A DNA stretch of 64,000 nt from Rhodospirillaceae bacterium (GTDB lineage: Bacteria; Pseudomonadota; Alphaproteobacteria; Rhodospirillales; JABHCV01). The notes beneath the pieces are model-generated. The model did not search any database and was not told the origin of the DNA. It saw only the letters and a program-made list of their open reading frames with translations. The stretch covers positions 1 through 64,000 of the forward strand of contig JABJHA010000008.1 in NCBI GenBank assembly GCA_018662005.1. Direction: 5' to 3'. Below are positions 26,617-42,991 of this stretch, one piece after another. Position 1 is the stretch's first letter. Each line of letters starts with the position of its first letter. The position numbers were made by a program, and so were the translations under genes.

Positions 26617-28176
26617 CTAGTGACTTGTGCCGCTGGAATAGGTGATCTTGTTGAAGACATTATACTTTCCTGAAGGCTTGACCATCTTGATGCGCTTGAC
26701 CTCTTTAAAGGTCTCTGCGTCGTAGATAACCAATGCCCCGTCCATATCCCAAACACTGACCAGGGCGAATTTGCCATCACGGGTAAATTCAACATGGGCG
26801 CCGGTTTTGCCCGGTGCCGGTTTCAGGGTTTTGACGATTTCCAGGGTTCGCTTGTCGATAATGTGCAACAAGTCCTTGTTGGGGCCGAAGAAAACATCAG
26901 TCCAGGCGTAGGGGGTGTTGTCGTGGCTGCGCATGAAAAAGCCGGGGCCTTTGGTTTCAATACGCTTGATGGTTTTCCATGACTTTAAGTCAATAACGCT
27001 GATCACCGCATCCTTCAGGTGCGGGGTCGCCATCACCGGGCGGCCTTCGTATTCAAAGGTGATGCCAGAACCCAAATGGGGCATCCCCGACAGATCAAGA
27101 TCGGCGATTTTTCGTCCCACCCGCATGTTGACGACCTGGCCGTTTTTACCGTTGCGGGCCGCACCAATCAGGTTGACGTAGGACTGGTCGAAAAAGAAAT
27201 CGTCAAGATAATCATCAAGGATAATCCGCCGCACCGGGAACGGTCCGTAATCGAATGCCCCCTCCTCCATGCCCGGCTGGTAATTATGGATCAGGCCCTG
27301 GGGCACCGGTTCGGGATCGTCCTCGTATGACATTTCCCAAATTTCCGGAATATCTTTCAACGCCGCGATAAAACTGTTGCGCGGCGGGGCTGTGTAAACG
27401 GCGCTGACGCGCGAGGGTGTTCCGTCCTTGCCGATAACAGGAATAATCTTGACCGGCTTCAGGGTTTCACTGTCCATGATCACCAGCGTATGAGGCAGGG
27501 TATTACCGGCCGCCACCCAGCGACCATCGCCGGAAACGGCAATATTGCGGGTATTGATACCGATACGGATTTCGGCCACCGTTTTAAAACTGAACAGATC
27601 GTACTTGCTGACCCAGCCATCGCGGGAAGCCAGATAGACAAAACGCCCGTCCGGTGAATACTTGGCCCCGCCATGCAAGGCGAAGCGGGATTTAAACCGC
27701 CACAGGGTCTCGAAACTGTCACCGTCAAGAATACTGACATGATGATCGCCGGTTTCGACCACCGTAAACAGGTTCAGTGGATCGGCGTTATGTTTTGGCG
27801 TCTCTGGAAGTCCAGCGGGGTCGTTGTGGATGATATGGCTGGCGTTCATTTCAGGCAATTTCCACTGCGGGATAGCGTCCAGAGGGGTGTAAATGAAATC
27901 CACCAGCGCCTTGATCTCGGCATCGTCAAGGGAGCCTTCGTAAGCAGGCATTTGCACCGCCGGGCGACCATCGGCAATGACCTCAATCGCCTTGTCTTTG
28001 GGCAAGCGGCCAAGATTTTCAGGAAGCAGCGGCGTGCCCATGCCGCCCAATCGATCCGCGCCGTGGCATTCAGCACAGTGTTCAGCGTAAAGGGCCGCGG
28101 TGTCAGGGGTTTCGGCGCGCGCCACAACAAGGCCGCCAATCAACAAGGCGGCAACAATAGAAATCAAGAAACGCAT
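26617..28176 (-). CDS. nirN: NirN, cytochrome c/d1-domain protein of heme d1 synthesis
   Basis: A 519-residue periplasmic protein with signal peptide, a class I cytochrome c domain (heme motif CAECH at about residues 34-38, followed by GADRLGGMGTPLLPENL) and a C-terminal eight-bladed d1-type propeller (about 130-519). NirN resembles NirS in layout but catalyses the last step of heme d1 synthesis, dehydrogenation of dihydro-heme d1. The c domain resembles that of NirC in this locus, as in known NirN proteins. Last gene of the nir set, 4 bp after nirJ. It is not NirS, because nirS is separate at 33729. Confidence 0.88.
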   Translation of the reverse strand: MRFLISIVAALLIGGLVVARAETPDTAALYAEHCAECHGADRLGGMGTPLLPENLGRLPKDKAIEVIADGRPAVQMPAYEGSLDDAEIKALVDFIYTPLDAIPQWKLPEMNASHIIHNDPAGLPETPKHNADPLNLFTVVETGDHHVSILDGDSFETLWRFKSRFALHGGAKYSPDGRFVYLASRDGWVSKYDLFSFKTVAEIRIGINTRNIAVSGDGRWVAAGNTLPHTLVIMDSETLKPVKIIPVIGKDGTPSRVSAVYTAPPRNSFIAALKDIPEIWEMSYEDDPEPVPQGLIHNYQPGMEEGAFDYGPFPVRRIILDDYLDDFFFDQSYVNLIGAARNGKNGQVVNMRVGRKIADLDLSGMPHLGSGITFEYEGRPVMATPHLKDAVISVIDLKSWKTIKRIETKGPGFFMRSHDNTPYAWTDVFFGPNKDLLHIIDKRTLEIVKTLKPAPGKTGAHVEFTRDGKFALVSVWDMDGALVIYDAETFKEVKRIKMVKPSGKYNVFNKITYSSGTSH

Positions 28177-28180
28177 AAGT

Positions 28181-29383
28181 TCAGCCTGCCTTGCGGGAAG
28201 CGGAAAACGGCGTCATTTTGATTCTTCCGGTGGCGCTGTTTTCGTCAATTCCGATTTCATCATCATCCAGATAACAGGCCGGATCTTCGGCCCACGGATC
28301 GCCGGTGATCTGATCGGCCCGAACCCGGGTATTGCCGCCGCAAATATCAACATGGCAACAAGCCGCACAACGGCCTTTCAGGGGCCTGGGACGGCTTTTC
28401 AGGCCCGCCATCAGCGGATCGGAAGTATCTTGCCAGATTTCCGAGAACGGCCTGTCCTTGACGTTGCCAAGGCCATAATGCCACCACATGGTGTCCGGGT
28501 GCACTTCCCCGACGTTATCAATATTGGCGACGTTGACACCCGAAGCGTTTCCGCCCCACTGAACCAGCTTGGCGCGCATGTGTTCTGCGTGATCGGGGTA
28601 ATTTTTTTCAATCCACTTGAGCAGATAAACCCCATCGGCATCATTGTTGCCGGTAACGAATTCCTTGGTCTCACCTTTACGGATTCCTTCAAGACAGCGC
28701 TCGAACAGCATATCCATGGCGTTGCGGGTCATCTGGAAAATGGCGTCGTCCTTGCGGTTATGGTTGCCGCGGCCAGCGTAATTCAGATGCGAGAAATAAA
28801 ACCTGTCGATATTTTCCTGATCGAGAAGGTCCAGCATATCACCCAACTCTGCGGCGTTGTCCTGGGTCATGGTGAAGCGCAAGCCGACTTTAAGGCCCTT
28901 TTCACGACACAGGCGCACCCCTTCCATGGATTTATCGAACGCCCCTTCGAGACGACGGAACTTGTCGTGGGTGTCGGCCATACCATCGATGCTGACGCCA
29001 ACATAGTCGTAGCCGATGTCGGCGATTTCATCGATCCGGGTTTCGTCGATCAGGGTGCCGTTGGTTGACAGCCCGGCGTAAAAGCCTAAGGATTTTGCCT
29101 GCCTTGAAATCTCATAAATATCTGGGCGCAACAGCGGCTCGCCACCCGATAAAATCAGCGCCGGCACCCGAAAAGTCTTCAAATCGTCCATCACCGCAAA
29201 AATCTGCTCGAGCGACAGCTCACCTGGGAAATCCTTGTCGGCCGAAATCGCGTAGCAGTGCTTGCAGGTCAGATTGCAGCGCCGGATCAGGTTCCAGATC
29301 ACGACGGGACCGGGTGGATCACGCCGAACGCCAACCGGGGTCGGGTTGTCTATTTCGCTGAGGAATTTGGTTAAACGGAACAT
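28181..29383 (-). CDS. nirJ: Radical SAM heme d1 biosynthesis protein NirJ
   Basis: A 400-residue radical SAM enzyme that replaces the propionates of didecarboxysiroheme with oxo groups during heme d1 synthesis. The [4Fe-4S]-SAM cysteines are in CNLTCKHC (residues 36, 40, 43), with a GGEPLLRPDI motif. A C-terminal SPASM-type region has RCAACCHVDICGGNTRVRA and a final Cys in DPACYL for auxiliary clusters. Length and motifs match NirJ. It lies 4 bp downstream of nirH. Confidence 0.93.
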   Translation of the reverse strand: MFRLTKFLSEIDNPTPVGVRRDPPGPVVIWNLIRRCNLTCKHCYAISADKDFPGELSLEQIFAVMDDLKTFRVPALILSGGEPLLRPDIYEISRQAKSLGFYAGLSTNGTLIDETRIDEIADIGYDYVGVSIDGMADTHDKFRRLEGAFDKSMEGVRLCREKGLKVGLRFTMTQDNAAELGDMLDLLDQENIDRFYFSHLNYAGRGNHNRKDDAIFQMTRNAMDMLFERCLEGIRKGETKEFVTGNNDADGVYLLKWIEKNYPDHAEHMRAKLVQWGGNASGVNVANIDNVGEVHPDTMWWHYGLGNVKDRPFSEIWQDTSDPLMAGLKSRPRPLKGRCAACCHVDICGGNTRVRADQITGDPWAEDPACYLDDDEIGIDENSATGRIKMTPFSASRKAG

Positions 29384-29387
29384 TTCT

Positions 29388-29861
29388 TCAAGCCTGCAGT
29401 CTAAGACCGGATTTCTTCAATATCCGGGTGGAGTATAATATTCTGTGATCGCGGGCGGCGTCGCCCAAAATCGTCAAAATTTGCCGGGTATGATTTTCGA
29501 CACTTTCGTGATCCCGGCCATGGACCATGCAAAACAGATTGTAGGGCCAGTCGGGCAAATGCCGGGGCCGGTGATAACAGTGGGAGACAAAATCCAAAGC
29601 CCCGACCCGGCGACCCAGGGCGCTGATTTGATCATCGGGAACATCCCACACGGTCATGCCGTTGGCCTTGTAGCCGAGCGCGTAATGGTTCGGCACCACG
29701 CCGTTACGACGAATGACGCCGGATTCCAGCATTTTTTTCATACGGGTCATAACTTCTGACGGTTCCGCCCCGACAGAGCGAGCAACATCGTCATAGGGTC
29801 GCAAGGAAAGCGGCAGGCCTTCCTGGGTGGCGACGACAATGGCGCGATCAAGATCGTCCAT
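29388..29861 (-). CDS. nirH: Heme d1 biosynthesis protein NirH (siroheme decarboxylase component)
   Basis: A 157-residue AsnC/Lrp-like protein of the NirDLGH group, which decarboxylates siroheme to 12,18-didecarboxysiroheme. The N-terminal HTH-like part (LPLSLRPYDDVARSVGAEPSEVMTRMKKMLESGVIRRNG) no longer needs to bind DNA; the C-terminal part has ANGMTVWDVPDDQISALGRRVGALDFVSHCYHRPRHLPDWPYNLFCMVHG. The HCYHRP motif pairs it with NirL in this cluster. The assignment to H rather than L is from gene order D-L-G-H. Confidence 0.88.
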   Translation of the reverse strand: MDDLDRAIVVATQEGLPLSLRPYDDVARSVGAEPSEVMTRMKKMLESGVIRRNGVVPNHYALGYKANGMTVWDVPDDQISALGRRVGALDFVSHCYHRPRHLPDWPYNLFCMVHGRDHESVENHTRQILTILGDAARDHRILYSTRILKKSGLRLQA

Positions 29862-29863
29862 GA

Positions 29864-30319
29864 TCAGGCCTCGAACCTGAGGCCGATAAAGAATTCTTCC
29901 TTTTTCGGCATGTTGTGAACGACAAGCCCGGTCGCTGCTTCGATTTTGGAAATGGTTTCAGCCACCCCTTCCGGCGTTTCAGTGGCGAGAACGAACCACA
30001 TGTTAAAATCATGGTCGCGGGCGTAGTTGTGGGCGACTTCATCAAATCCGTTGACGATTTCGGCAATTCGCTCGTAGTCATCTTCGGGGACTTCCAATGC
30101 CGCCAGGGTCAAACCACCACCCATTTTTTCGGCATGATACATGGGCCCGAAACGGCTTAAGGTTCCGTCTTCCAGCAGGCGTGTTACCCGGGCCAGGGCT
30201 TCTTCGGCGTCGATACCAAGGCTGGCCCCGACTTCGGCGAACGGTTCCGCTGACAGCGGAAATCCGCCCTGATAATCGTTGATCAGGGCGCGATCGATGG
30301 CGTCCAGTTGAGCGCTCAT
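29864..30319 (-). CDS. nirG: Heme d1 biosynthesis protein NirG (siroheme decarboxylase component)
   Basis: A 151-residue paralogue in the NirDLGH siroheme decarboxylase group. It has the AsnC-like N-terminus (FPLSAEPFAEVGASLGIDAEEALARVTRLLEDGTLSRFG) and a C-terminal NGFDEVAHNYARDHDFNMWFVLATE segment that groups it with NirD rather than NirL/NirH. It overlaps nirL by 4 bp (ATGA) and is 2 bp before nirH, indicating tight co-translation of the components. Confidence 0.88.
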   Translation of the reverse strand: MSAQLDAIDRALINDYQGGFPLSAEPFAEVGASLGIDAEEALARVTRLLEDGTLSRFGPMYHAEKMGGGLTLAALEVPEDDYERIAEIVNGFDEVAHNYARDHDFNMWFVLATETPEGVAETISKIEAATGLVVHNMPKKEEFFIGLRFEA

Positions 30320-30822
30320 GCCACCGACTCCAGTTTTTGCGGGCTGTTGCCATAATGGGCACCGCGTTGTTTGAAACGGCGGCTGCTGAACAGCACATCC
30401 CGAGCAGCCGCATCGGCGCCACAGGTGCGGGCAAGCTGTTCGACCTGCTCAAGAACATCGTCGCGCTTTTGTCCGTGGACCATGCAAAACAAATTGTAAG
30501 GCCAGTCAGGCAAGCGGCGGGGACGGTGGTAACACAGGGTGACAAAATCAAACTCACCGAAACAGCGGCCGACCTGGGCGACCTTATCATCGGCGACATC
30601 CCAGACTGTCATGGCGTTGGCCCGGTAACCCAGTTCGTGATGGCGGACGATCAGGCCAAAGCGCTTGATGCGCCCGTCAACCTGCATGGCCGACAGGGTT
30701 TCAATGACGGCGGCTTCGCTGATGCCGACCTGTTCTGCGATAACGGCAAAAGGTCTGGAAACCAGTGGCAAACCGTCACCAAGGGCGGCTACAAGTTTTT
30801 TTTCGTGGTCGCTTAATTCCAT
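30316..30822 (-). CDS. nirL: Heme d1 biosynthesis protein NirL (siroheme decarboxylase component)
   Basis: A 168-residue member of the NirDLGH siroheme decarboxylase group. AsnC-like helices (LPLVSRPFAVIAEQVGISEAAVIETLSAMQVDGRIKRFG) are followed by ANAMTVWDVADDKVAQVGRCFGEFDFVTLCYHRPRRLPDWPYNLFCMVHG, nearly identical in plan to NirH. Overlaps nirD by 10 bp and nirG by 4 bp. The short C-terminal extension after RRFKQRG is not seen in NirH here. Confidence 0.88.
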   Translation of the reverse strand: MELSDHEKKLVAALGDGLPLVSRPFAVIAEQVGISEAAVIETLSAMQVDGRIKRFGLIVRHHELGYRANAMTVWDVADDKVAQVGRCFGEFDFVTLCYHRPRRLPDWPYNLFCMVHGQKRDDVLEQVEQLARTCGADAAARDVLFSSRRFKQRGAHYGNSPQKLESVA

Positions 30823-31262
30823 TGCAAGTCAAATCCCAAATCAAGGTGGTAATCTTCCAGCATTGGCAGATTGAGCACCTTGATCCCGGTCATGTGTTCG
30901 ATGTCGTCAATCACCTGATCGACGCCCTGAGCGTCAGCGGCGGTGACGACAAACCATAAATTCAGTCGGTGCTCGCGCTCATAGTTGTGGTTGACCGCGT
31001 CGAAATTACTGACCACCGCGGCCACTTCCTCCAGCCGGTCAGGCTCGACGGCCATCGCCGCCAGGGTGCTGTGACCGACCGTGTTGGGTTTGAAGACAGC
31101 GCCGACGCGGCTCAAGGTACCGTTTTCTTTCAGCACTTTCAGGGCCTCGATGACATCGTCCTCGCAGACCCCCAGCTTTTCGGCAATGGCGGCGTAAGGA
31201 CGTTCAACCAGCGGGACGCCGCGCTGAAACCCGTCGATCATTTTCTTGCTCAGCTCGTCCAT
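30813..31262 (-). CDS. nirD: Heme d1 biosynthesis protein NirD (siroheme decarboxylase component)
   Basis: A 149-residue NirD. It has VPLVERPYAAIAEKLGVCEDDVIEALKVLKENGTLSRVGAVF and NFDAVNHNYEREHRLNLWFVVTA, the D/G-type signature. NirD and NirL are separate genes here, not the fused NirDL of some species. The ATG at 31262 is 2 bp after the nirF stop; the longer open frame to 31397 lies inside nirF and is not used. Confidence 0.9.
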   Translation of the reverse strand: MDELSKKMIDGFQRGVPLVERPYAAIAEKLGVCEDDVIEALKVLKENGTLSRVGAVFKPNTVGHSTLAAMAVEPDRLEEVAAVVSNFDAVNHNYEREHRLNLWFVVTAADAQGVDQVIDDIEHMTGIKVLNLPMLEDYHLDLGFDLQWN

Positions 31263-31264
31263 TT

Positions 31265-32503
31265 TCAAAGTCCGGTCTTGTGGGCGCGTGCCGTGAAAAA
31301 GATACCGCTTGGCTTGAGAGCCGGAAGTTCTTTTATGACTTCTGCCGTTTTGGTGTCGTAAACCTTGACCACATCCAGATCGCGCACCGATAGCCACACT
31401 TCTTCGCCGCGTGGCGTAAATTCCATGTGCAGGACGCCTTTGCCGGGGGTCAGTGTCTTAACCAGTTTCATGGTTTCCGCATCGATGACCTGCACCGTAT
31501 CGTTACGGGGAACGGCGAAGTTGACCCACACCTGGCGTCCGTCAGGGCGGGCCATGACAAACACCGGCTGGCCATGAACCGGGATACGGGCGACCTGTTT
31601 CCATGTCGTCATGTCGACGACCAGAACCTCGTGATGGCCGACCGCAGGCATGAACGCGTAGCCACCGGCGACGGCCCAACCTTCCAGATGCGGCATCTTG
31701 TAAACGGGCAGCTTTTCTTCACCCCTGCCATAATTATCAAGAATACGGGTGACGCCTTTTTCAAGATGCCACAGGTCGAGCATGGCCATACCATCCTCGC
31801 CGAACAGCCCTGAAATATAAGTGCGACCGTCAGGCGTTATCAGGCCGTCATAGGGTTGATGGCCGATGTCGGTGAACTTGGTAATGGCAGGTTCTTCAGG
31901 GTTGCTCATATCGGCGACCCAGATTTCGTCACTGTCATAAAGGGCGAAGACGAACAACTGCCCCGGCGCGTCAACCAGACCGATGACTTTTGACTGTGTT
32001 GGCAGATCGGCGACCAGTTCCAGCGTTCCCGTATCAAAAATTCGCACCCCGCCGGGTTCATAATTGGAAACGGCGACGAGACTGCCATCCTGTGAAATCG
32101 CCCCGCCGATGGCGTTACCGGCCTGGATGACACGGGCAACCACTTTGGCCTTAAGCATATCAACCTTGCTGAGGCCGCCGTCACGGCCAAAGACGAAGGC
32201 GTAGCGTTCATCGCGGGAGAAAACCACCGAGGCGTGACTCAAATCACCCAAGCCATGAACCCGCGCCAGACGCTGACGGTTGCTGCTATCGACGATCAGG
32301 GCAGAGCTGTCGGCGCGTTCGATAATCAGGCCAAGATCGCCAGTCCCCCGTAACGGCGTGCCCGAACAGCCGCTAACCATCAAAACAAATGCGAGGACCG
32401 CCAATATTGGCTTGGCTTCCAGAGGCCCAAAAAGCCAAGCAAGCGGAGCGCGCGCCCGGCACCTGAGGGGCAACGCACTTAACCGAATTCTTATTTTTTC
32501 CAT
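31265..32503 (-). CDS. nirF: NirF, heme d1 biosynthesis lipoprotein with atypical signal peptide
   Basis: A 412-residue d1-propeller protein related to the d1 domain of NirS and NirN, without a cytochrome c domain; needed for heme d1 synthesis in the periplasm. The propeller (about 50-412) shows ALIVDSSNRQRLARVHGL, YAFVFGRDGGLSKVD, and WAVAGGYAFMPAVGHHEVLVVD. The lipobox VLMVSGC directs lipidation. The start at 32503 has AAGGA 6 bp upstream and overlaps the nirC end by 13 bp. It gives an unusually long n-region of about 30 residues (RLSALPLRCRARAPLAWLFG, then PLEAKP) before the hydrophobic core; a perfect 8-bp inverted repeat (32410-32417/32433-32440) lies in this stretch. Confidence 0.88.
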   Translation of the reverse strand: MEKIRIRLSALPLRCRARAPLAWLFGPLEAKPILAVLAFVLMVSGCSGTPLRGTGDLGLIIERADSSALIVDSSNRQRLARVHGLGDLSHASVVFSRDERYAFVFGRDGGLSKVDMLKAKVVARVIQAGNAIGGAISQDGSLVAVSNYEPGGVRIFDTGTLELVADLPTQSKVIGLVDAPGQLFVFALYDSDEIWVADMSNPEEPAITKFTDIGHQPYDGLITPDGRTYISGLFGEDGMAMLDLWHLEKGVTRILDNYGRGEEKLPVYKMPHLEGWAVAGGYAFMPAVGHHEVLVVDMTTWKQVARIPVHGQPVFVMARPDGRQVWVNFAVPRNDTVQVIDAETMKLVKTLTPGKGVLHMEFTPRGEEVWLSVRDLDVVKVYDTKTAEVIKELPALKPSGIFFTARAHKTGL

Positions 32504-32829
32504 TTGTTTTCCTTTATCGCCCGGACCAGCCAGCGCGCCTCTTCCTCGCTCAACAGTTCTTTCCATGGCGGCATCGGGGTTCCGGGCAATCCCTCCATAA
32601 TGATCTGCGTCAAATCATCATCACTGCGCGTGGCCATGGTTTCAGGCAACAAGGGCGAACCAAGACCACCGCTACGGGTGAGGCCATGACAGGAACCGCA
32701 ATCATGTTTGAGGAAATACAACAACTCTACTTGTCGCTCAGCCGAAATTCCGGCCCGGGCGGGGGCGGCCAACAGCAACAAGACAAACAGCAGCAGAGCT
32801 CCCTCAGGCTTGAGCCGAAAGGACTTCAT
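32491..32829 (-). CDS. nirC: NirC, periplasmic c-type cytochrome (cytochrome c55x)
   Basis: A 112-residue exported monoheme cytochrome c. Signal peptide MKSFRLKPEGALLLFVLLLLAAPARA precedes the heme site CGSCH (residues 44-48), GLTRSGGLGSPLLPETM, and a candidate Met ligand in TPMPPWKELLSEEEARWL. NirC can pass electrons to NirS and takes part in heme d1 maturation. The ATG at 32829 gives the more usual signal peptide; an in-frame ATG at 32865 is possible. The gene overlaps nirE by 26 bp and nirF by 13 bp. Confidence 0.88.
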   Translation of the reverse strand: MKSFRLKPEGALLLFVLLLLAAPARAGISAERQVELLYFLKHDCGSCHGLTRSGGLGSPLLPETMATRSDDDLTQIIMEGLPGTPMPPWKELLSEEEARWLVRAIKENKWKK

Positions 32830-33619
32830 CACAGGCAAGTTCCAGCTGGCTGTAGGCATCTTCATAGATCATTCCCTGCCAATTCAGCATATCAGCCAAA
32901 CTGACCACTTTGCCGACGATAACAAGTACCGGCGACGGCAAGTCAAGATCATCAACCATCATCGGCAATCCGGCAAGGGTGCTGATGCACTGACGTTGCC
33001 CATCGACGGTTCCCTTGGAGATCGCGGCAGCCGGCGTATCAGAAGGCAGGCCCTGGGCGATCAAATTGCTCGATATGTCAGGAAGATTGGAAAGTCCCAT
33101 GTAGAAAACAAGGGTCGTTTGCTCACAGGCGAGGCTTTTCCAGTCAAGATCCAGACTTTCGCCAGCCCGGGCGTGGCCGGTAACGAAGCGCACACCGGTG
33201 GAAAGGCCGCGGTGGGTCAGCGGAATACCAAGCGCCGCACTGATCCCTGAAGCGGCCGTGACACCGGGCACCACTTCAAAAGCGACGCCGCGATGGGCCA
33301 GATATTCGGCTTCTTCGCTGCCGCGCCCGAAAATAAACGGGTCCCCGCCCTTAAGCCGGACAACCATGTGATTGCTGTGGGCCAACTTGACCAGTAAGGC
33401 GTTAATGTCCTCCTGGGCAAGATGATGATTGCTGGCCGCCTTACCGACAAAAATGCGGGCGATGCCGGGTCCGATAAGATCAAGAATTTGTTGGGAAACC
33501 AGCCGGTCATAGACAATCACGTCGGCCTTTTTCAAGGCATTCAGCGCTTTGACCGTCAGCAGTTCCGGATCGCCCGGACCAGCCCCAACCAAAAATACTT
33601 TGCCAGTTTTTTCAGCCAT
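32804..33619 (-). CDS. nirE: Uroporphyrinogen-III C-methyltransferase NirE
   Basis: A 271-residue SUMT-type methyltransferase that makes precorrin-2 from uroporphyrinogen III, the entry into heme d1 (and siroheme) synthesis. Motifs are VFLVGAGPGDPELLTVKAL, VIVYDRLVS, VVRLKGGDPFIFGRGSEE, and VEVVPGVTAASG in the form FEVVPGVTAASGI. It lacks the CysG oxidase domain. ATG at 33619 has GGAG 7 bp upstream and is favoured over 33649. It follows nirS after a 109-bp gap with a hairpin. Named nirE from its place in the nir set. Confidence 0.92.
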   Translation of the reverse strand: MAEKTGKVFLVGAGPGDPELLTVKALNALKKADVIVYDRLVSQQILDLIGPGIARIFVGKAASNHHLAQEDINALLVKLAHSNHMVVRLKGGDPFIFGRGSEEAEYLAHRGVAFEVVPGVTAASGISAALGIPLTHRGLSTGVRFVTGHARAGESLDLDWKSLACEQTTLVFYMGLSNLPDISSNLIAQGLPSDTPAAAISKGTVDGQRQCISTLAGLPMMVDDLDLPSPVLVIVGKVVSLADMLNWQGMIYEDAYSQLELACDEVLSAQA

Positions 33620-33695
33620 CTTGATCTCCGATGTTTTGTTTATTGTCACAAAAAAAATTTATTCGGGGATGTTCTTAAAAATAAATGTCTAAAGC

Positions 33696-33728: not shown

Positions 33729-35931
<2,203 letters not shown>

Positions 35932-35932
<1 letters not shown>

Positions 35933-36005: not shown

Positions 36006-36749
36006 TTACTCCAGCGTAAAATGCCCGGCGGCGTTATCGAAACCGATCACCAGAATTTCACGGGCCGCCAGATCGACGTCCCGCTCAAGGATAAAATCAT
36101 GATCTCCCGGGGAAACCGTATCGCGGGAATCCCACATACCGACCTTTACCCGGTGTTTGCCCGCAGTGACCGGGAATTGCTGATAAAAACTGGAATGGCC
36201 GTCCTTCGATAAACCCGCAGGCCGGGCGGCACCCCGATAGACATTTTTACCATCCAGGGCGAGATCGATAATCAGGGGCCAGCGTTCGCGCGAGCATTTC
36301 ATCGGCGCACGCATGTTGGCGGCCAGTTTGGCCAGCTCCTCACGGGTGCGCTTCTTGCACTCTTCCCGGTGCTGGCCTGCATGGGTGAAACTGAGCATGA
36401 CCTGTGCCTGTTCAGGCGGATGGGCGACGTAGACCGGAGAGCTTGAGAAATAAACAACCAGCAGCGCAAACAGAGCAAAGAAAATGGTCTGACCAAGTAA
36501 TTGCAGGGGGGTTTTTCTGGCCACCTTCATTTTCAGGCCCGACGCCTTAATTTTGGCGTGACGATCATTGGCCTGGCGGGCCTTTTCTTCCTTAAATAAT
36601 CTTTTTTGCTCGCGCACTTCCGCTGAAGGATTGATGATTTCTTTCAGTCCCAGATGATAGAGAACCAGAAAGAAAATCGGGCTGAAAACAATAAATGGCA
36701 CCAGATGGAAAATCGGAATGCTGGGATCAATGCCTAAAAACTCGTTCAT
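36006..36749 (-). CDS. Membrane protein of unknown function linked to cytochrome b fusion
   Basis: A 247-residue protein I do not recognise. Two predicted membrane segments lie at about residues 13-34 and 82-104, separated by a very basic cytoplasmic loop (EVREQKRLFKEEKARQANDRHAKIKASG). The C-terminal 140 residues would be periplasmic, contain two Cys (REECKKRTREE and APMKCSRER) and end in a beta-rich part (TAGKHRVKVGMWDSRDTVSPGDHDFILERDVDL) suggesting a small sandwich domain. Its ATG overlaps the stop of the cytochrome b fusion gene (ATGA), so the two are probably made together and may form a complex. Confidence 0.7.
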   Translation of the reverse strand: MNEFLGIDPSIPIFHLVPFIVFSPIFFLVLYHLGLKEIINPSAEVREQKRLFKEEKARQANDRHAKIKASGLKMKVARKTPLQLLGQTIFFALFALLVVYFSSSPVYVAHPPEQAQVMLSFTHAGQHREECKKRTREELAKLAANMRAPMKCSRERWPLIIDLALDGKNVYRGAARPAGLSKDGHSSFYQQFPVTAGKHRVKVGMWDSRDTVSPGDHDFILERDVDLAAREILVIGFDNAAGHFTLE

Positions 36750-38317
36750 GAGGCATCACCCTTATCATCGGGGAGCGCATCAAGGGTTTTCCTGAAATCG
36801 TCTATTTCGTTGCATAAGGGTTGTTCCTGAACCCGCGACGCCCAGAACACCTTGATACGGTCACGTTCGACCCGCTTGCGCAAATAGGGATCGCGAACAC
36901 CGGCAATGCGTTCTTCTGTCCAACGGTTGCCAAGGCGGTTAAAGCAATCGCAGGACTGGCAACCGGTAATCAAAATTCCGTCAACGCCGTCCTGGCTTAA
37001 CGTGAAATCCATGAAAGACGGCGGCAACATGCCAATACAGGGCATACTTAAACCGGCAACCCCTGGCTCTTCGACAGTGTTGGTGTCGGCACCAAAATCG
37101 CAGCCAAAGACTATAACACCGGGCTGCCCTTCGGCGCCGGTTGCTAACCTTTCAACGGCTTTGACGGTTTTGTCGCGAAGCTGCTTCAGGTTCAGGTCAG
37201 GCAGGTCGATACCGGTGATCAGTTCTTCGGTGCGCCTGAACGGGGTTGAAACCGGGCACGAGCCGACGCAAATTCCGCAACTCGTACACAGGTCCGAATC
37301 GACGACGGCTTCACGCTCGAAGGGCCTGCCGTCGGTTCTTGGAACCATGCTTATCGCCCCGAACGGGCAATCCACGAAGCAGCGCGTACAACCGTTGCAT
37401 TTTTCCAGATAGACGACCGCCGGTTTCGGGCGTTTAAGTGGTGGCATCCACGGCATTGCCGCAACAATGATTGACACCCCGATGGCCAGCGCCCACAGGG
37501 TTCCCGCACCCCAGGCATCGAAAACCGGATACAGGAACATATAGAACCAGTCCAGATTGAGTTCGCTGGGCACCATGCTCAAATCAGCCGGCGCATGGCT
37601 GACAGCCGGTTTGGCAAGCGCCAGGGCGACAAACATGACAAGCGAGCCAATGGCCAACCCGCGCGGCGGGTTGATTTTAGGCTGACTGACCCGCATCACG
37701 TGGATCCACATCACGAACAGCAGGAACAAGGGGCCAAAGATGTGCATGAACACCAGCAGGGTGAAGAACCTGTCTGTCAGGCTGCTGGGCGTCAGGAAAT
37801 TATTGGCCACCGGTTCACCAAAAATCCCCAGCCAGTCAATCCATTCCATGGAACTGATGGCCACATACTGGGCCAGCATGTCCCAGACCAGCCAGTAACC
37901 GCTGATCCCGGAAATAAACAGCATCCAGATAATCGGCACCCCGGTGAACCATGTGAACCAGCGAACATCGCGGTAACGATCCATGATGAATTCACGGCTC
38001 AGGTGAAACACCATGGTCACGATCATCGCGTCTGAGGCGTACCGGTGCAGGCTGCGCACGATGCCGCCCAGATACCATTGCTGATGGGTCATCACCTCAA
38101 CGGATTGATAAGCCCCGCCAACGGTGGTGTCGAAAAGGATATAAACATAGATGCCGCTGGCGGCGACAATCCAGTAATAGAAAAACGACAGGGTTCCCAT
38201 CTGGCGCAGTGGATTCCACTCCGGCCCGAAAGGCCGGTCCAGCGCTGCCTCAAGATGCAGAACAGCATTTTGCAGGCGTTTTCGGAAACTTAAATGAGAT
38301 AACGATGATGGCAACAA
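36746..38317 (-). CDS. Cytochrome b - bis[4Fe-4S] ferredoxin - MvhD-like fusion protein
   Basis: A 523-residue fusion. The N-terminal membrane part (about 1-295) is a cytochrome b of the bc1/b6 type with two His pairs, H91/H105 and H192/H206, each spaced 14, for two hemes b. A dicluster ferredoxin follows (Cys 307/310/313/317 and 344/347/350/354, in CNGCTRCFVDCP and CTSCGICVGSCP). The C-terminus (about 400-475) resembles MvhD/FlpD iron-sulfur domains, with VIVFGCDFGAD, PCIGMLPPSF and ITGCQSCDCFNRLGN. It should carry electrons between the quinone pool and a partner unknown here. Start is TTG (38317 or 38314), set by GGAGG upstream. A perfect FNR box lies 68 bp before it. It is not an ordinary cytochrome bc1. 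Confidence 0.85.
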   Translation of the reverse strand: MLPSSLSHLSFRKRLQNAVLHLEAALDRPFGPEWNPLRQMGTLSFFYYWIVAASGIYVYILFDTTVGGAYQSVEVMTHQQWYLGGIVRSLHRYASDAMIVTMVFHLSREFIMDRYRDVRWFTWFTGVPIIWMLFISGISGYWLVWDMLAQYVAISSMEWIDWLGIFGEPVANNFLTPSSLTDRFFTLLVFMHIFGPLFLLFVMWIHVMRVSQPKINPPRGLAIGSLVMFVALALAKPAVSHAPADLSMVPSELNLDWFYMFLYPVFDAWGAGTLWALAIGVSIIVAAMPWMPPLKRPKPAVVYLEKCNGCTRCFVDCPFGAISMVPRTDGRPFEREAVVDSDLCTSCGICVGSCPVSTPFRRTEELITGIDLPDLNLKQLRDKTVKAVERLATGAEGQPGVIVFGCDFGADTNTVEEPGVAGLSMPCIGMLPPSFMDFTLSQDGVDGILITGCQSCDCFNRLGNRWTEERIAGVRDPYLRKRVERDRIKVFWASRVQEQPLCNEIDDFRKTLDALPDDKGDAS

Positions 38318-38415: not shown

Positions 38416-39267
38416 TCAGGCCGATGACTGACGATGAGATGATGAACCGGGTTTACGACGGCGGGCCCTGAATATGCGAACCCATTCGCGGACGACAAAG
38501 ATGAACATCCCGCCGACGATCAGGGTGCCGACAAAAAGCTGGATGAAAATCGAATAGTCAAAACGGTAGCGGTCCTGTGCCGGGTCATAAATGGTGCAAA
38601 ACAGCCGCACCTTCTTGATCAGGTCGCCAACACTGGCAAACGGCGTCGGCGTACCGAAAACAAGTTCCTTCAATGGTTCGACCAGCAGCGGCAAGTCAAA
38701 AGTCTGGCCATAAACCTGCCGGTAGACGACCCCCTTGCCATCAAGAACCGTCACTTGCGATAAGTGATCGTAACCCTTGGGCGAGGAATAGAAAATAAAG
38801 CCCAGGTTTTCAGCCAGGCCCACCATGGATGGCAAGTCGCCGCTCAGAAATTTCCAATCGGCAACGTCAATACCTTGCTGGGTGGCGAAGTAGCGCATCC
38901 GGTCGGGGCTATCCGCGGCGCTGTCGAAGCCGACGGAGACAACGGAAAAACTGTCATTCCCCAGGGCGTTGCGGGCGCTGGCGGCGGCGTCGGCCAGGGT
39001 CTGGGTGATGATCGGGCAGCTATCGGCGCAACTGGTGTAGATAAAGCTGACAACCAGTGGTTTGCCACGGAAATCAGCCATCGTCACCGCCTCGCCATGG
39101 CTATCGGTGAAGGCGTAATTGGCAAGGGTGCGGCCAATGGCGGCTTGTGAATAGGTCAGCGCCTGTTCTGGCGTGTAATCGGATTTGTCAGTTGCGGCCA
39201 GCGGCGCGCCCGGCAAAAAGGCGACCCAGGACATCAGTAAAATTAAAAGTGAAAATGATCTTTTCAT
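38416..39267 (-). CDS. SCO1/SenC family copper-binding protein
   Basis: A 283-residue SCO protein, a periplasmic thioredoxin-fold copper chaperone for CuA centres. A signal peptide is followed by ALTYSQAAIGRTLANYAFTDSHGEAV, the copper-binding Cys pair in SFIYTSCADSCPIITQTL, and the His ligand in KGYDHLSQVTVLD. Unlike many SCO proteins it also has a C-terminal membrane segment (about 242-264) with a basic tail. It sits directly behind the NO reductase-like genes, whose subunit II has a CuA site, so that is the likely target. Confidence 0.9.
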   Translation of the reverse strand: MKRSFSLLILLMSWVAFLPGAPLAATDKSDYTPEQALTYSQAAIGRTLANYAFTDSHGEAVTMADFRGKPLVVSFIYTSCADSCPIITQTLADAAASARNALGNDSFSVVSVGFDSAADSPDRMRYFATQQGIDVADWKFLSGDLPSMVGLAENLGFIFYSSPKGYDHLSQVTVLDGKGVVYRQVYGQTFDLPLLVEPLKELVFGTPTPFASVGDLIKKVRLFCTIYDPAQDRYRFDYSIFIQLFVGTLIVGGMFIFVVREWVRIFRARRRKPGSSSHRQSSA

Positions 39268-39340: not shown

Positions 39341-41035
39341 TTAGCTTAAGCCCCAAACGCTGCTCAAATACTTCCAGTTAACGAAGTAATAGAGAACGAA
39401 CGAGACCAGGAAGATCATCGCCAACACGAAGGTTCCGGGAACCTCCATGGTTCCGGCGCTGCCATAACTGGTGGCGGCTCCGGTGACGTTGGGTTCTGCC
39501 GGTGCTTCTTCGGCAGGTGCAGCAGCTGCTGGCACCTTGGCCTTACCCCACAGGATCGTACCGACCATGTTGAGGATGAAGATCGCAGCACCTATAGAGC
39601 CCATGACCGCGGCGACACCGTTCAAACCCATCATCAGGTTGGCGGCTGCCGGGAAGTCATAGCCCATGGCGGAGTCGGCAAAGGTCATATCCCAGTGCCG
39701 GCGCGGAACACCCAGTGTACCCGCCCCCATCATGAAGGTCGCGGCCAGTCCCATGCCAATACCGAACAGGTAAGGTTGCCATTTGGCGAGACCGGGGAAG
39801 ACCAGCTCTTTTTGCCACAACGTCGGCACGATCCAGTACGAGATCGCCATAAACGTTAGCGTCGTACCGACCACCACAGTGCCATGGAAGTGACCGGGCA
39901 CGTAGATGGTGTTGTGGGTGATCAGGTTGAGCTGCTCTGTGCCCATCATGACGCCCGAGATACCACCCAGGAAGCCGAACAGGACCACCGACAGGGCCAT
40001 ACCGGCAAACACCGGGTTACCCCACGGCGCCTTGGTCAGCCATTCAAACAGACCCTTGTTAAGACCCTTCTTGCGCTGCGCCGCCTCGATGGCGCCAGGA
40101 ACGGTAAGCCCGTGGATCATCGAACCCAACACCGCCAGATACAAAGCGTATGAGGTGTTGAAGATCTTGTATTCCGAGCTCAGTCCCGGGTCGACCAGCA
40201 GATGGTGGGCGCTGGCCAGTTGCAGGAACAGGATGTACAGCAGGAAGGCCGTACGGCTGACCTTTTCGCTAAGCGGTTTGGCACCGAACAGGATCGCGGC
40301 AATCGCATACCAGCAAGCAATCTGGGCGGCGACGTTGACCTGTTGGGAAGAGTGACCCATGCCCCACCAGATCACCCGATACATGATGGTGTCGATGTGA
40401 GACAAAAGCCCCAGGGACCAGAACCAGGTCGGGACCAGGATAATGGCGCCGGACAGGATCGTGAAGACGGCGATAATCGCCGCCGTCATGGCCCCGAAAG
40501 TGACCAGCGGAATAGACCCTTCATAGGTTTTTTCCTTGCGCGCCATGTGCAGAGTGGCAAAAAATACCAGACACCCCAATAGCGCACCGACGGCGAACAG
40601 GATAATACCCAGATAGAAGTCCTGGGCCGCCATCATTGGCGGATAGGATGTGAACATCACCGAGCTGTCGCCCCTGAGCACCGCAATATTGGTAATGACG
40701 GCGCCTATCAGCATCATCCAGTAACCAATCCACGCGATCTTTGGAAAGACCATGCGTGCATTGAGAAGAATGGCCGAGGTGAAATACAACAATGCAATTT
40801 CAAAGAAAATGCACCAAACCAGCAAAACGTCCAATCCGTGCGCAGTTAGCGCCAGATAGAACAGGTCTGCATCAAGAAGGTGAACTGCGGGCCAGCGGGT
40901 CAAAGCGACCAGCAGGCCGAACAAGCCACCAACCAACAAGAAAACAACAGCCGTTACCGCGTTCCATTTGATCAACTTGTCAGCATTAAGATCAATTTTG
41001 AAACCAGTATCGGGACACGTTCTGAATTCTGCCAT
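39341..41035 (-). CDS. Heme-copper oxidoreductase subunit I, probable eNOR-type NO reductase
   Basis: A 564-residue membrane enzyme of the heme-copper superfamily with about 13-14 helices. Heme and metal ligands are present: H66 (low-spin heme), H228, H277/H278 and H382/H384. The residue four after H228, tyrosine in O2-reducing oxidases (HxxxY) and glutamate in cNOR, is Gln232 (GHSSQQVN), so a cross-linked Tyr is absent. From established knowledge, loss of that Tyr marks NO reductases. I infer the eNOR group, which keeps a CuA subunit II. Gene context with nirS, hemerythrin and SCO agrees, and no norCB is in the window. GGGAGG precedes the ATG. Alternative: a divergent oxidase. Confidence 0.75.
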   Translation of the reverse strand: MAEFRTCPDTGFKIDLNADKLIKWNAVTAVVFLLVGGLFGLLVALTRWPAVHLLDADLFYLALTAHGLDVLLVWCIFFEIALLYFTSAILLNARMVFPKIAWIGYWMMLIGAVITNIAVLRGDSSVMFTSYPPMMAAQDFYLGIILFAVGALLGCLVFFATLHMARKEKTYEGSIPLVTFGAMTAAIIAVFTILSGAIILVPTWFWSLGLLSHIDTIMYRVIWWGMGHSSQQVNVAAQIACWYAIAAILFGAKPLSEKVSRTAFLLYILFLQLASAHHLLVDPGLSSEYKIFNTSYALYLAVLGSMIHGLTVPGAIEAAQRKKGLNKGLFEWLTKAPWGNPVFAGMALSVVLFGFLGGISGVMMGTEQLNLITHNTIYVPGHFHGTVVVGTTLTFMAISYWIVPTLWQKELVFPGLAKWQPYLFGIGMGLAATFMMGAGTLGVPRRHWDMTFADSAMGYDFPAAANLMMGLNGVAAVMGSIGAAIFILNMVGTILWGKAKVPAAAAPAEEAPAEPNVTGAATSYGSAGTMEVPGTFVLAMIFLVSFVLYYFVNWKYLSSVWGLS

Positions 41036-41047
41036 GATTGCCTCCCT

Positions 41048-41590
41048 CTACTTAGCAACTACGTGGATTTTGCCAACCATTGTATGGTGGCCAATCCCGC
41101 AGAATTCGTTACAAATAACGCCAAACTCGCCAGAACTGGTCGGTTTGACAGTGAAGATCATCTCGTAGTTGGGGTGCACCTGAATATTGATGTTTTCAGG
41201 CAGCAGTGACCAACCGTGCATCCAGTCAAGTGACGACAGATGGAAACGATAAGATTGCCCCTCTTCCAACTCGATAACCGGCCACCATTCCCACAACCGG
41301 CCAAGCATATAGACGTCGCCTCCGGCAGGTGGATGAACGACCGGGATGCCGGTATCGCCTTCTTCGCGGACCGTATACTTGGCTGCCCACGTTTCGACTT
41401 TTTCGGCATAAACGTCCGGTTTGATCTTATAGGCCTCGTTCGACAGATTCTGTTCGCCGACAAGGTGCCAATACGGCATCATGAAAAACATCACCAGGGC
41501 CCAGATAAAGGCGATGGTGATCCACATGACCTCCGATTTTTCGATTGGTTGGTTCCACCAAACCCGCTGTGGTGGAGGAAAAATACCCAT
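41048..41590 (-). CDS. Heme-copper subunit II with CuA site, NO reductase partner
   Basis: A 180-residue protein with one N-terminal membrane anchor (about 22-42) and a periplasmic cupredoxin domain. The CuA ligands are complete: H125 in LDWMHGWSLLP and C160, E162, C164, H168, M171 in CNEFCGIGHHTM. A single anchor and short length resemble B-family oxidase subunit II. It would accept electrons from a soluble cytochrome c and pass them to subunit I, 12 bp downstream. The gene is preceded by a small TM-protein gene and lacks a coxIII or ctaG partner, unlike an aa3 operon. Confidence 0.85.
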   Translation of the reverse strand: MGIFPPPQRVWWNQPIEKSEVMWITIAFIWALVMFFMMPYWHLVGEQNLSNEAYKIKPDVYAEKVETWAAKYTVREEGDTGIPVVHPPAGGDVYMLGRLWEWWPVIELEEGQSYRFHLSSLDWMHGWSLLPENINIQVHPNYEMIFTVKPTSSGEFGVICNEFCGIGHHTMVGKIHVVAK

Positions 41591-41611: not shown

Positions 41612-41779
41612 TTATTGAGCCAGCGGGATGGCGATGGTTTCCATCACACCCCATACGATATACAAAACCATCGGCGAAACGATGCCGATGACGAGCAACA
41701 GAAGCGGGCTATCCAGCAGCTGTTGCATAAATGGAATTTTTTCGTCCGTTCCACCGGGACCGGTGTCAAAATCGCTCAT
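41612..41779 (-). CDS. Small single-helix membrane subunit of the heme-copper complex
   Basis: A 55-residue protein with one membrane helix (about 25-50; LLDSPLLLLVIGIVSPMVLYIVWGVMETIAIPLAQ) and an acidic N-terminus (MSDFDTGPGGTDEKIP). GGGGA lies 5 bp before the ATG at 41779. It is first in the unit, 21 bp before subunit II, so it is probably a small structural subunit. No function is known from the sequence alone. Confidence 0.75.
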   Translation of the reverse strand: MSDFDTGPGGTDEKIPFMQQLLDSPLLLLVIGIVSPMVLYIVWGVMETIAIPLAQ

Positions 41780-42043
41780 AAGTCCCCTCTCCTTCCTTAT
41801 CATTGACAATCCCCGAGCATGCTCTGGCGGGGCCTTAACCTCATAAAAGCGCGTTTTAGCTTGCTCCAATCAGCCATGGTTACCCGGTGGCTTCCTTAAC
41901 CGAGGTCAAATGGGCGCACTTTTTCTATTTTTGCCGAGCCGCCGAATCTGTCGAAAAAGCCAACTAATCCTTGCCTTTAGCTGTGCCAACGGGCACATAA
42001 AGTAAAGACCGGAACATTCCGCGCCTGATGGAGAATTCAACCC

Positions 42044-42991
42044 GTGCCCGCCAACGACGACTCCGACACCATCAACAACAATGACGCAGCCGAACAGACG
42101 CGTGCGCCAAATTTGCGGGTTGTTGAATATGCCCTGCTGTTAAAGCCCAGGGTGATGTCGCTGGTCGTCTTCACCGCCTGGACCGGCATGATGATGGCGC
42201 CGGGTTCGATTGACCTGCCCACCGGCGTCATTGCCATCATCTGTATCGCCGTCGCCGCAGGGGCGTCTGGGGCGATTAACATGTGGTATGACCGCGACAT
42301 CGACATCATCATGAAGCGAACCCAGCACAGGCCGCTGCCAGCGGGCCACCTTGAACCGCTCGAAGCGCTCGGTTTTGGCGTCTTCCTGTCCGTCGCCTCG
42401 GTCTCCGTCATGGCTATTTTTGTCAATATCGCCGCTGCCGGCTGGTTGATGACGACCATCGTCTATTACGTTTTCATCTACACCATCTGGTTAAAACGGC
42501 GGACCCCGCAAAACATCGTCATCGGCGGCGCTGCCGGTGCCTTCCCGCCAATGATCGGCTGGATTGCAGTCACCGGCGGGGTTGAATCCAACGCCTGGAT
42601 TCTGTTCCTGATTATTTTTCTGTGGACGCCGCCCCATACCTGGGCCCTGGCCCTGTTCAGAAGTGGCGATTACGAAGCCGCCGGGGTGCCGATGATGCCG
42701 GTTGTCGTCGGCCACCACAAAACCGCTGTGCAGATGCTGATTTACACGCTGGTTCTGATACCGGTGACCCTGTTGCCAACGATTCTGGGCCTTTCCGGGC
42801 GCGTCTACATGGCCGCGGCTATCGTCTTAGGCGTCGGCCTTCTGCGCCATGCCATCATTGTGCTGAAAGACGACGACGCCAAAAAGGCCCGCTCGATGTT
42901 TCTATTTTCGATCCTCTACCTGTTCATGATCTTCGTCTTCCTGCTCGTCGACAAAGGCCTGATGCTGTGGTTGCCTGATTACTTCTCATGA
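42044..42991 (+). CDS. ctaB: Protoheme IX farnesyltransferase (heme O synthase)
   Basis: A 315-residue UbiA-family membrane prenyltransferase that adds farnesyl to heme B, giving heme O. About nine helices; the Asp-rich motif is NMWYDRDIDIIMKRTQHRPLPAG, and the second conserved loop is DYEAAGVPMMPVV. The start is GTG with GGAG about 10 bp upstream. It is divergent from the NO reductase-like genes. No ctaA is present in the window, so whether this complex contains heme O/A or the gene serves another oxidase is open. It overlaps the next gene by 4 bp. Confidence 0.93.
   Translation: MPANDDSDTINNNDAAEQTRAPNLRVVEYALLLKPRVMSLVVFTAWTGMMMAPGSIDLPTGVIAIICIAVAAGASGAINMWYDRDIDIIMKRTQHRPLPAGHLEPLEALGFGVFLSVASVSVMAIFVNIAAAGWLMTTIVYYVFIYTIWLKRRTPQNIVIGGAAGAFPPMIGWIAVTGGVESNAWILFLIIFLWTPPHTWALALFRSGDYEAAGVPMMPVVVGHHKTAVQMLIYTLVLIPVTLLPTILGLSGRVYMAAAIVLGVGLLRHAIIVLKDDDAKKARSMFLFSILYLFMIFVFLLVDKGLMLWLPDYFS

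Follow-up and report, generated by a model that had tools for sequence, protein, structure and literature searches.

Between nirS and a pair of heme-copper oxidase-like genes in a Rhodospirillaceae bacterium lies a gene encoding a protein that joins a cytochrome b to a dicluster ferredoxin and an MvhD-like domain, raising the question of what such a fusion contributes to nitrogen oxide respiration. The locus was studied within a 64,000 nt stretch of contig JABJHA010000008.1, referred to here as the window (Table 1). The fusion gene has an open reading frame of 523 aa, with a TTG start codon, a GGAGG motif a few bases 5' of this on the gene strand and a stop at position 36746; the start of the gene for its partner, P36006, overlaps it by 4 bp in the window.

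Table 1. Positions of the fusion gene and its neighbours within the window
Feature	Position	Strand	Evidence and context
nirS, cytochrome cd1 nitrite reductase	33729..35525	-	PF02239 E 1.2e-148
Hemerythrin-domain protein	35540..35932	+	PF01814 E 9.5e-10; adjoins the module in many loci
P36006, membrane-anchored, predicted periplasmic beta domain	36006..36749	-	Pairs with the fusion at nearly every locus
Fusion: cytochrome b (helices A-D with four heme His, helices E-F), 2x[4Fe-4S] ferredoxin and FlpD/MvhD	36746..38317	-	
Perfect FNR/DNR-type box TTGATGCTGATCAA	38385..38398	not assigned	Precedes the fusion gene by about 75 bp
SCO1/SenC copper chaperone	38416..39267	-	PF02630 E 1.8e-14; conserved neighbour
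eNOR subunit I, heme-copper oxidase superfamily	39341..41035	-	PF00115 1e-67; Gln signature HSSQQ
eNOR subunit II	41048..41590	-	CuA ligands intact (H125, C160, E162, C164, H168, M171)
P41612, small membrane protein	41612..41869	-	First gene of the eNOR operon; order conserved
CyoE-like heme O synthase	42044..42991	+	Transcribed divergently here; many relatives have it within the operon

All three domains proposed by the first-pass annotation score above their curated Pfam cut-offs: Cytochrome_B at residues 39-210 (3e-13), a Fer4 dicluster at residues 306-356 (8e-10) and FlpD/MvhD at residues 417-515 (PF02662, E 4.5e-12; 46.5 bits against a cut-off of 22.3). The last of these is a clear match, where a lack of MvhD similarity had been named as grounds for abandoning the proposal. 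Solved relatives are cytochrome b6 for the first domain and MvhD chains, including 5odc_D, for the last. When aligned with a canonical bc1 cytochrome b (HHalign probability 99.4), D256-W257 takes the place of E-W in the PEWY Qo motif, such that the fusion has a DW(F/Y) version of this motif in its helix E-F part. The C-terminal half resembles the end of HdrA2, with the same ferredoxin-MvhD order (NF040770 positions 571-771, E 5e-20), whilst the best NCBIfam match of the protein is to ExtP, the cytochrome b of a selenite/tellurite operon (9e-25), at 87.7 bits, well short of the equivalog cut-off of 290. By homology, the N terminus is predicted to be inside, followed by six helices and a cytoplasmic Fe-S tail; the AlphaFold model, made from only eight usable sequences, has a mean pLDDT of 46.

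An alignment of 73 rows, representing about 72 orthologues, was used to determine which residues are conserved. The two heme His pairs first suggested, H91/H105 and H192/H206, are invariant throughout, as are D256 and W257. The eight Cys of the two [4Fe-4S] motifs are likewise upheld, being invariant, along with C406, C427, C453 and C458, bar one domain-swapped paralogue and one truncated row. However, the set of five Cys originally ascribed to the MvhD site stands only in part, as C456 is kept in just 16 of the 73 rows; this leaves the site, as read from the alignment, with four conserved Cys, a number sufficient for a single [2Fe-2S] cluster. The conserved DW(F/Y)/PEWY region suggests that the cytochrome b may retain a working quinone site. 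A selenocysteine in the MvhD domain was considered and rejected: the gammaproteobacterial matches with an apparent internal TGA, at query positions 516-517, represent a normal stop codon that was read through. Elsewhere in the relatives, frames of 745-806 aa match the ferredoxin-MvhD part at 27-32% identity (G018:C95:74538-75197, G012:C1:52889-53530, G053:C1:579013-579630 and others) and are perhaps HdrA2-like or dehydrogenase-like.

A Gln at the site where oxygen reductases have their catalytic Tyr is a criterion for eNOR (PMC8756737). The HSSQQ motif of the window protein aligns with HPAVY in the A-type oxidase encoded by the window genome, its Gln coinciding with the oxidase Tyr in helix VI, and the eNOR of Thermus and Thermomicrobium have HGAQQ at the same Gln site; the CuA ligands of subunit II are invariant in 47 sequences. 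By these two sequence characters, Gln-for-Tyr and a CuA-containing subunit II, the oxidase-like genes in the window are those of an eNOR. Three Pfam COX1 matches were found in the window genome, namely the eNOR, a cbb3-type match adjoining ccoG- and fixH-like genes and one of the A-type; hence the eNOR is the only heme-copper-type NO reductase candidate detected by this search, which missed HCO2, a weak fourth representative of the superfamily. A Haloarcula 'eNOR' considered as a fusion-less control was dropped, as its active-site Tyr (HPVVY) marks it as an ordinary oxidase. Adjoining nirS, at 26617-33649 in the window, are heme d1/nir-type genes, named by eye as nirJ-, nirF- and nirE-type and a nirN-like cytochrome, together with four small ORFs resembling regulators of the nirDLGH type.

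To establish how closely the fusion is associated with eNOR, three samples were used, drawn from the same order (100 genomes), the phylum (398 genomes) and the class (385 genomes), with a few genomes, including that of the window, shared between them. Within the order, 32 genomes have the fusion and 30 a close eNOR, all 30 of the latter having both; at the phylum level, 34 have the fusion and 29 of the 30 eNOR genomes have both; for the class, the fusion is present in 24 and in every one of the 23 eNOR genomes. The Fisher p values of 1.7e-23 (same order) and 8e-38 (phylum) are inflated by shared ancestry, though many families are involved. The sole eNOR genome lacking the fusion (G168) has a contig that ends 58 bp past SCO. 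Conversely, the fusion was found without a detected full eNOR in eight genomes (G016, G045, G220, G236, G244, G324, G374 and G737), in most of which it lies near a contig end or the assembly is an incomplete draft; G045 has an eNOR_I fragment at a contig edge and G324 an 80-residue eNOR fragment, leaving G236 and G737 not accounted for. The same cluster is found on a Defluviimonas plasmid, a named record in which the homologue is called just 'cytochrome b N-terminal domain-containing protein' by RefSeq and the CyoE-like homologue is annotated as heme o synthase. Hence the fusion is a near-constant companion of eNOR in the sampled proteobacteria and belongs to the eNOR system. Outside the Pseudomonadota, it was not found near two eNOR clusters, on Thermus and Thermomicrobium plasmids, and is therefore probably dispensable for eNOR function.

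The usual gene order is small protein, eNOR II, eNOR I, (cyoE), SCO, fusion, P36006 and hemerythrin, and this is essentially fixed in alphaproteobacterial neighbourhoods; in those with enough sequence the fusion follows SCO, mostly after eNOR, and thus lies among assembly genes. In several gammaproteobacteria (L114, L115, L117, L121 and others), the fusion and P36006 are instead near nirS, with eNOR not adjoining. Nearly all gammaproteobacteria with such a detached pair have eNOR elsewhere in the genome, and the link is therefore not merely positional. As the fusion keeps P36006 beside it even where the operon order is broken, the two form a stable unit. In one gammaproteobacterial family (L115, L117, L126, L127, L129, L134 and L124), the pair is divergent to CysE- and IscS-like genes, which belong by sequence to the isc group. 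L109, L111, L122 and L139, from small genomes within a single family, have the fusion duplicated in tandem; in those copies that were read, the Cys and His sets appear to be retained.

P36006 itself has no family match in Pfam or NCBIfam-type searches. Its beta domain comes after the last membrane helix, and H123, C131, the NMR motif at 145-147, C152 and H199 are each kept in 91% or more of the 67 rows aligned, the Cys pair (C131, C152) being 97% conserved. Its structural model resembled nothing more specific than a generic beta-sandwich (best Z 9.7, with 6% identity; Foldseek gave no match with E <0.001), and kinship with CcoG_C or FixH was rejected at an hhalign probability of 0.2. An HCO2-type protein of about 460 aa, which keeps the helix VI His and an HxH motif but not the helix VII His pair (CuB ligands), follows the fusion and P36006 in four loci (L109:1-1401, L111:469-1908, L122:11290-12666 and L140:6626-8056). 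It was discounted as a special partner of the fusion, since relatives are present in 43 of 44 fusion genomes and mostly located elsewhere; the CuB-less oxidase homologue of the window genome (G000:C14:13103-14410; L173:8007-9440) lies in an A-type cytochrome oxidase cluster, beside a small membrane protein.

The perfect FNR box noted in the first-pass annotation was recovered and is the only one in the window, where 0.07 would be expected. Across 1.11 Mb of fetched loci, allowing at most one mismatch, boxes were found upstream of the eNOR operon in 20 cases, of nirS in 19 and of the fusion in 14; these 14 all lie within 150 bp, against about 1.2 expected in the 150 bp upstream of 72 fusions. 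The co-occurrence with eNOR in three samples and the FNR/DNR-type boxes before fusion, eNOR and nirS bear out the link to nitrogen oxide respiration that had been suggested from the window alone, and the wide occurrence beside unrelated pathways that would have spoken against it was not seen within the Pseudomonadota samples.

The fusion has parts in common with several known systems. Like the C-terminal module of HdrA2 and stand-alone MvhD, it has a dicluster ferredoxin followed by an MvhD domain, with Cys positions in common, but it lacks the FAD-binding HdrA domain, HdrB/C and hydrogenase and is joined to a membrane cytochrome b. It shares with the cytochrome b/b6 of bc1/b6f complexes the same four axial His, helices A-F and a PEWY-like motif (with E replaced by D), differing in its cytoplasmic Fe-S tail; no Rieske Fe-S or cytochrome c/f gene was found among the neighbours in the Defluviimonas cluster or the conserved neighbours. 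In terms of role, the comparison is with CcoG/FixG, likewise a dicluster-ferredoxin membrane protein beside a heme-copper enzyme and assembly genes (PMC7558416). However, CcoG lacks the b hemes and MvhD domain, the fusion lacks the FixG_C domain, and the weak similarity between them is significant only around the ferredoxin part; the sole FixG_C match in the window genome is another gene, beside the cbb3-type oxidase genes. As judged by these membership tests, the fusion is not CcoG, nor part of an Hdr complex, nor of a bc1 complex. The b-heme metalloreductases (FRE, STEAP, Dcytb) pass electrons from a cytoplasmic donor through transmembrane b hemes to metal outside, as proposed below for the fusion; their cytochrome family is unrelated, and metalloreductase activity of the fusion is only proposed. 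The window cluster resembles those of eNOR (ba3-a1) in having eNOR I and II with SCO and CyoE. Whilst the ba3-a1 operon of Magnetospirilli is noted to contain SCO (Degli Esposti et al., PMC6431628), the text of that paper, as distinct from its figures, in which the gene may be drawn, does not describe a cytochrome b-Fe-S-MvhD protein, and a search of the open-access full-text literature found no published description of this architecture.

A natural domain swap offers a hint as to the direction of electron flow. In one genome (G459, 100% complete), a cytochrome b is fused to Fer2, FAD_binding_6 and NAD_binding_1 domains, in place of the ferredoxin-MvhD part; this protein (L140:10139-12118, minus strand; contig C34) occupies the slot after eNOR-cyoE-SCO and is followed by P36006 and then a normal fusion. 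It shares its FAD/NAD(P)H module with the b-heme metalloreductases. Such [2Fe-2S]/FAD/NAD(P)H reductase modules usually carry electrons in from NAD(P)H, whilst transfer from ubiquinol to low-potential clusters is uphill without coupling. The swap and the potential of ubiquinone together favour electron entry from the cytoplasm; the exchange, seen in one genome, suggests that electrons flow from cytoplasm to membrane through the fusion, which probably feeds them into either making or running eNOR.

The explanation we favour, if tentatively, is that the fusion is an eNOR-dedicated transmembrane reductase for cofactor maturation; here we infer the direction of electron flow, a periplasmic acceptor and the maturation role itself. 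A low-potential cytoplasmic donor would supply the electrons, either a flavoprotein or ferredoxin that docks on the MvhD-like domain or, in one lineage, NAD(P)H itself; these would pass via the [2Fe-2S] and two [4Fe-4S] clusters to the cytoplasm-side and then the periplasm-side b heme, and thence to a periplasmic acceptor or quinone. With P36006, and alongside SCO and CyoE, the fusion would spend this reducing power at the periplasmic face on the maturation or repair of eNOR: where oxygen is absent and NO abundant, it would keep copper in the Cu(I) state, and thiols in the reduced state, so that CuA and CuB can be loaded. Its role would resemble that of CcoG for the cbb3 oxidase, or of eukaryotic b-type metalloreductases for copper and iron, with unrelated parts. 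Maturation is favoured by the location of the fusion gene together with SCO and cyoE, by the conserved Cys pair in the periplasmic part of P36006, by the reported use of cytochrome c as electron donor to eNOR (PMC8879329) and by the precedent of CcoG, a comparable Fe-S reductase serving the cbb3 oxidase (PMC7558416). A CcoG gene is, however, already present in the window genome, next to those of the cbb3-type oxidase, and this weakens the need for general copper reduction by the fusion. Also against maturation are the apparent lack of relation between P36006 and the CcoG periplasmic domain or FixH, and the putative quinone site, superfluous in a pure metalloreductase; the Thermus and Thermomicrobium clusters argue that the role is probably not essential.

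Almost as likely is a role in respiratory electron input, in which the fusion would oxidise a reduced ferredoxin or a flavoprotein, or NAD(P)H where the module is swapped, and pass electrons through its b hemes to ubiquinone, or through P36006 to the CuA of eNOR, giving NO reduction its own electron supply. This reading is supported by the retention of the four His and of D256-W257, making a quinone site likely, by the exchange for an NAD(P)H module, which fits an oxidoreductase, and by the FNR-type boxes and strict linkage to eNOR. Yet eNOR has an intact CuA and a reported cytochrome c donor, the fusion gene lies among assembly genes, the Thermus and Thermomicrobium eNOR lack a local fusion, and no donor enzyme genes are nearby. 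Rather unlikely is that the fusion is a dedicated input arm of eNOR, using its MvhD docking domain and cytochrome b to bring electrons from the ferredoxin/flavin or NAD(P)H pool of the cytoplasm into NO reduction, and so partly bypassing the bc1-cytochrome c route; if true, this would be a new kind of electron path in denitrification.

Beyond assembly and electron supply, the fusion might protect eNOR-containing cells from NO, reducing nitrosylated clusters or thiols together with the hemerythrin; the adjoining hemerythrin gene in many loci and the NO-producing nirS next door fit this, but other denitrifiers face equal NO stress and the fusion is absent from many sampled genomes without eNOR, making this role improbable. 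Still more doubtful is the direction originally suggested, from quinol through the cytochrome b to a low-potential or thiol acceptor via the MvhD domain. In anaerobes, HdrA receives electrons from MvhD domains, and the quinone-site-like residues are conserved; nonetheless, this is the uphill direction with ubiquinone, and an NAD(P)H entry module fills the same slot in G459. The absence of an HdrA-like partner, first noted locally, holds genome-wide: in the 96.5% complete window genome no HdrA scores above cut-off, the fusion being itself the best HdrA2 match and the only FlpD match, no other Hdr protein was found, and the operon has no flavoprotein. Least probable is the earlier suggestion of a sensor signalling redox, quinone or NO state to the cytoplasm, for which no positive evidence was found beyond the NO sensitivity of Fe-S clusters in general and co-regulation with nirS and eNOR, whilst a signalling output domain is absent, the full electron chain is strictly conserved and a catalytic reductase module has naturally replaced the Fe-S part.

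eNOR makes N2O, and the cluster that encodes it is commonly interpreted as consisting of oxidase subunits and SCO. A near-obligatory, uncharacterised redox protein would mean that a component of the proteobacterial eNOR system, serving either assembly or electron supply, has been overlooked. The fusion would also serve as a marker separating eNOR from look-alike oxidases in metagenomes, and would be a rare case of an MvhD domain working outside the Hdr systems of methanogens and acetogens.
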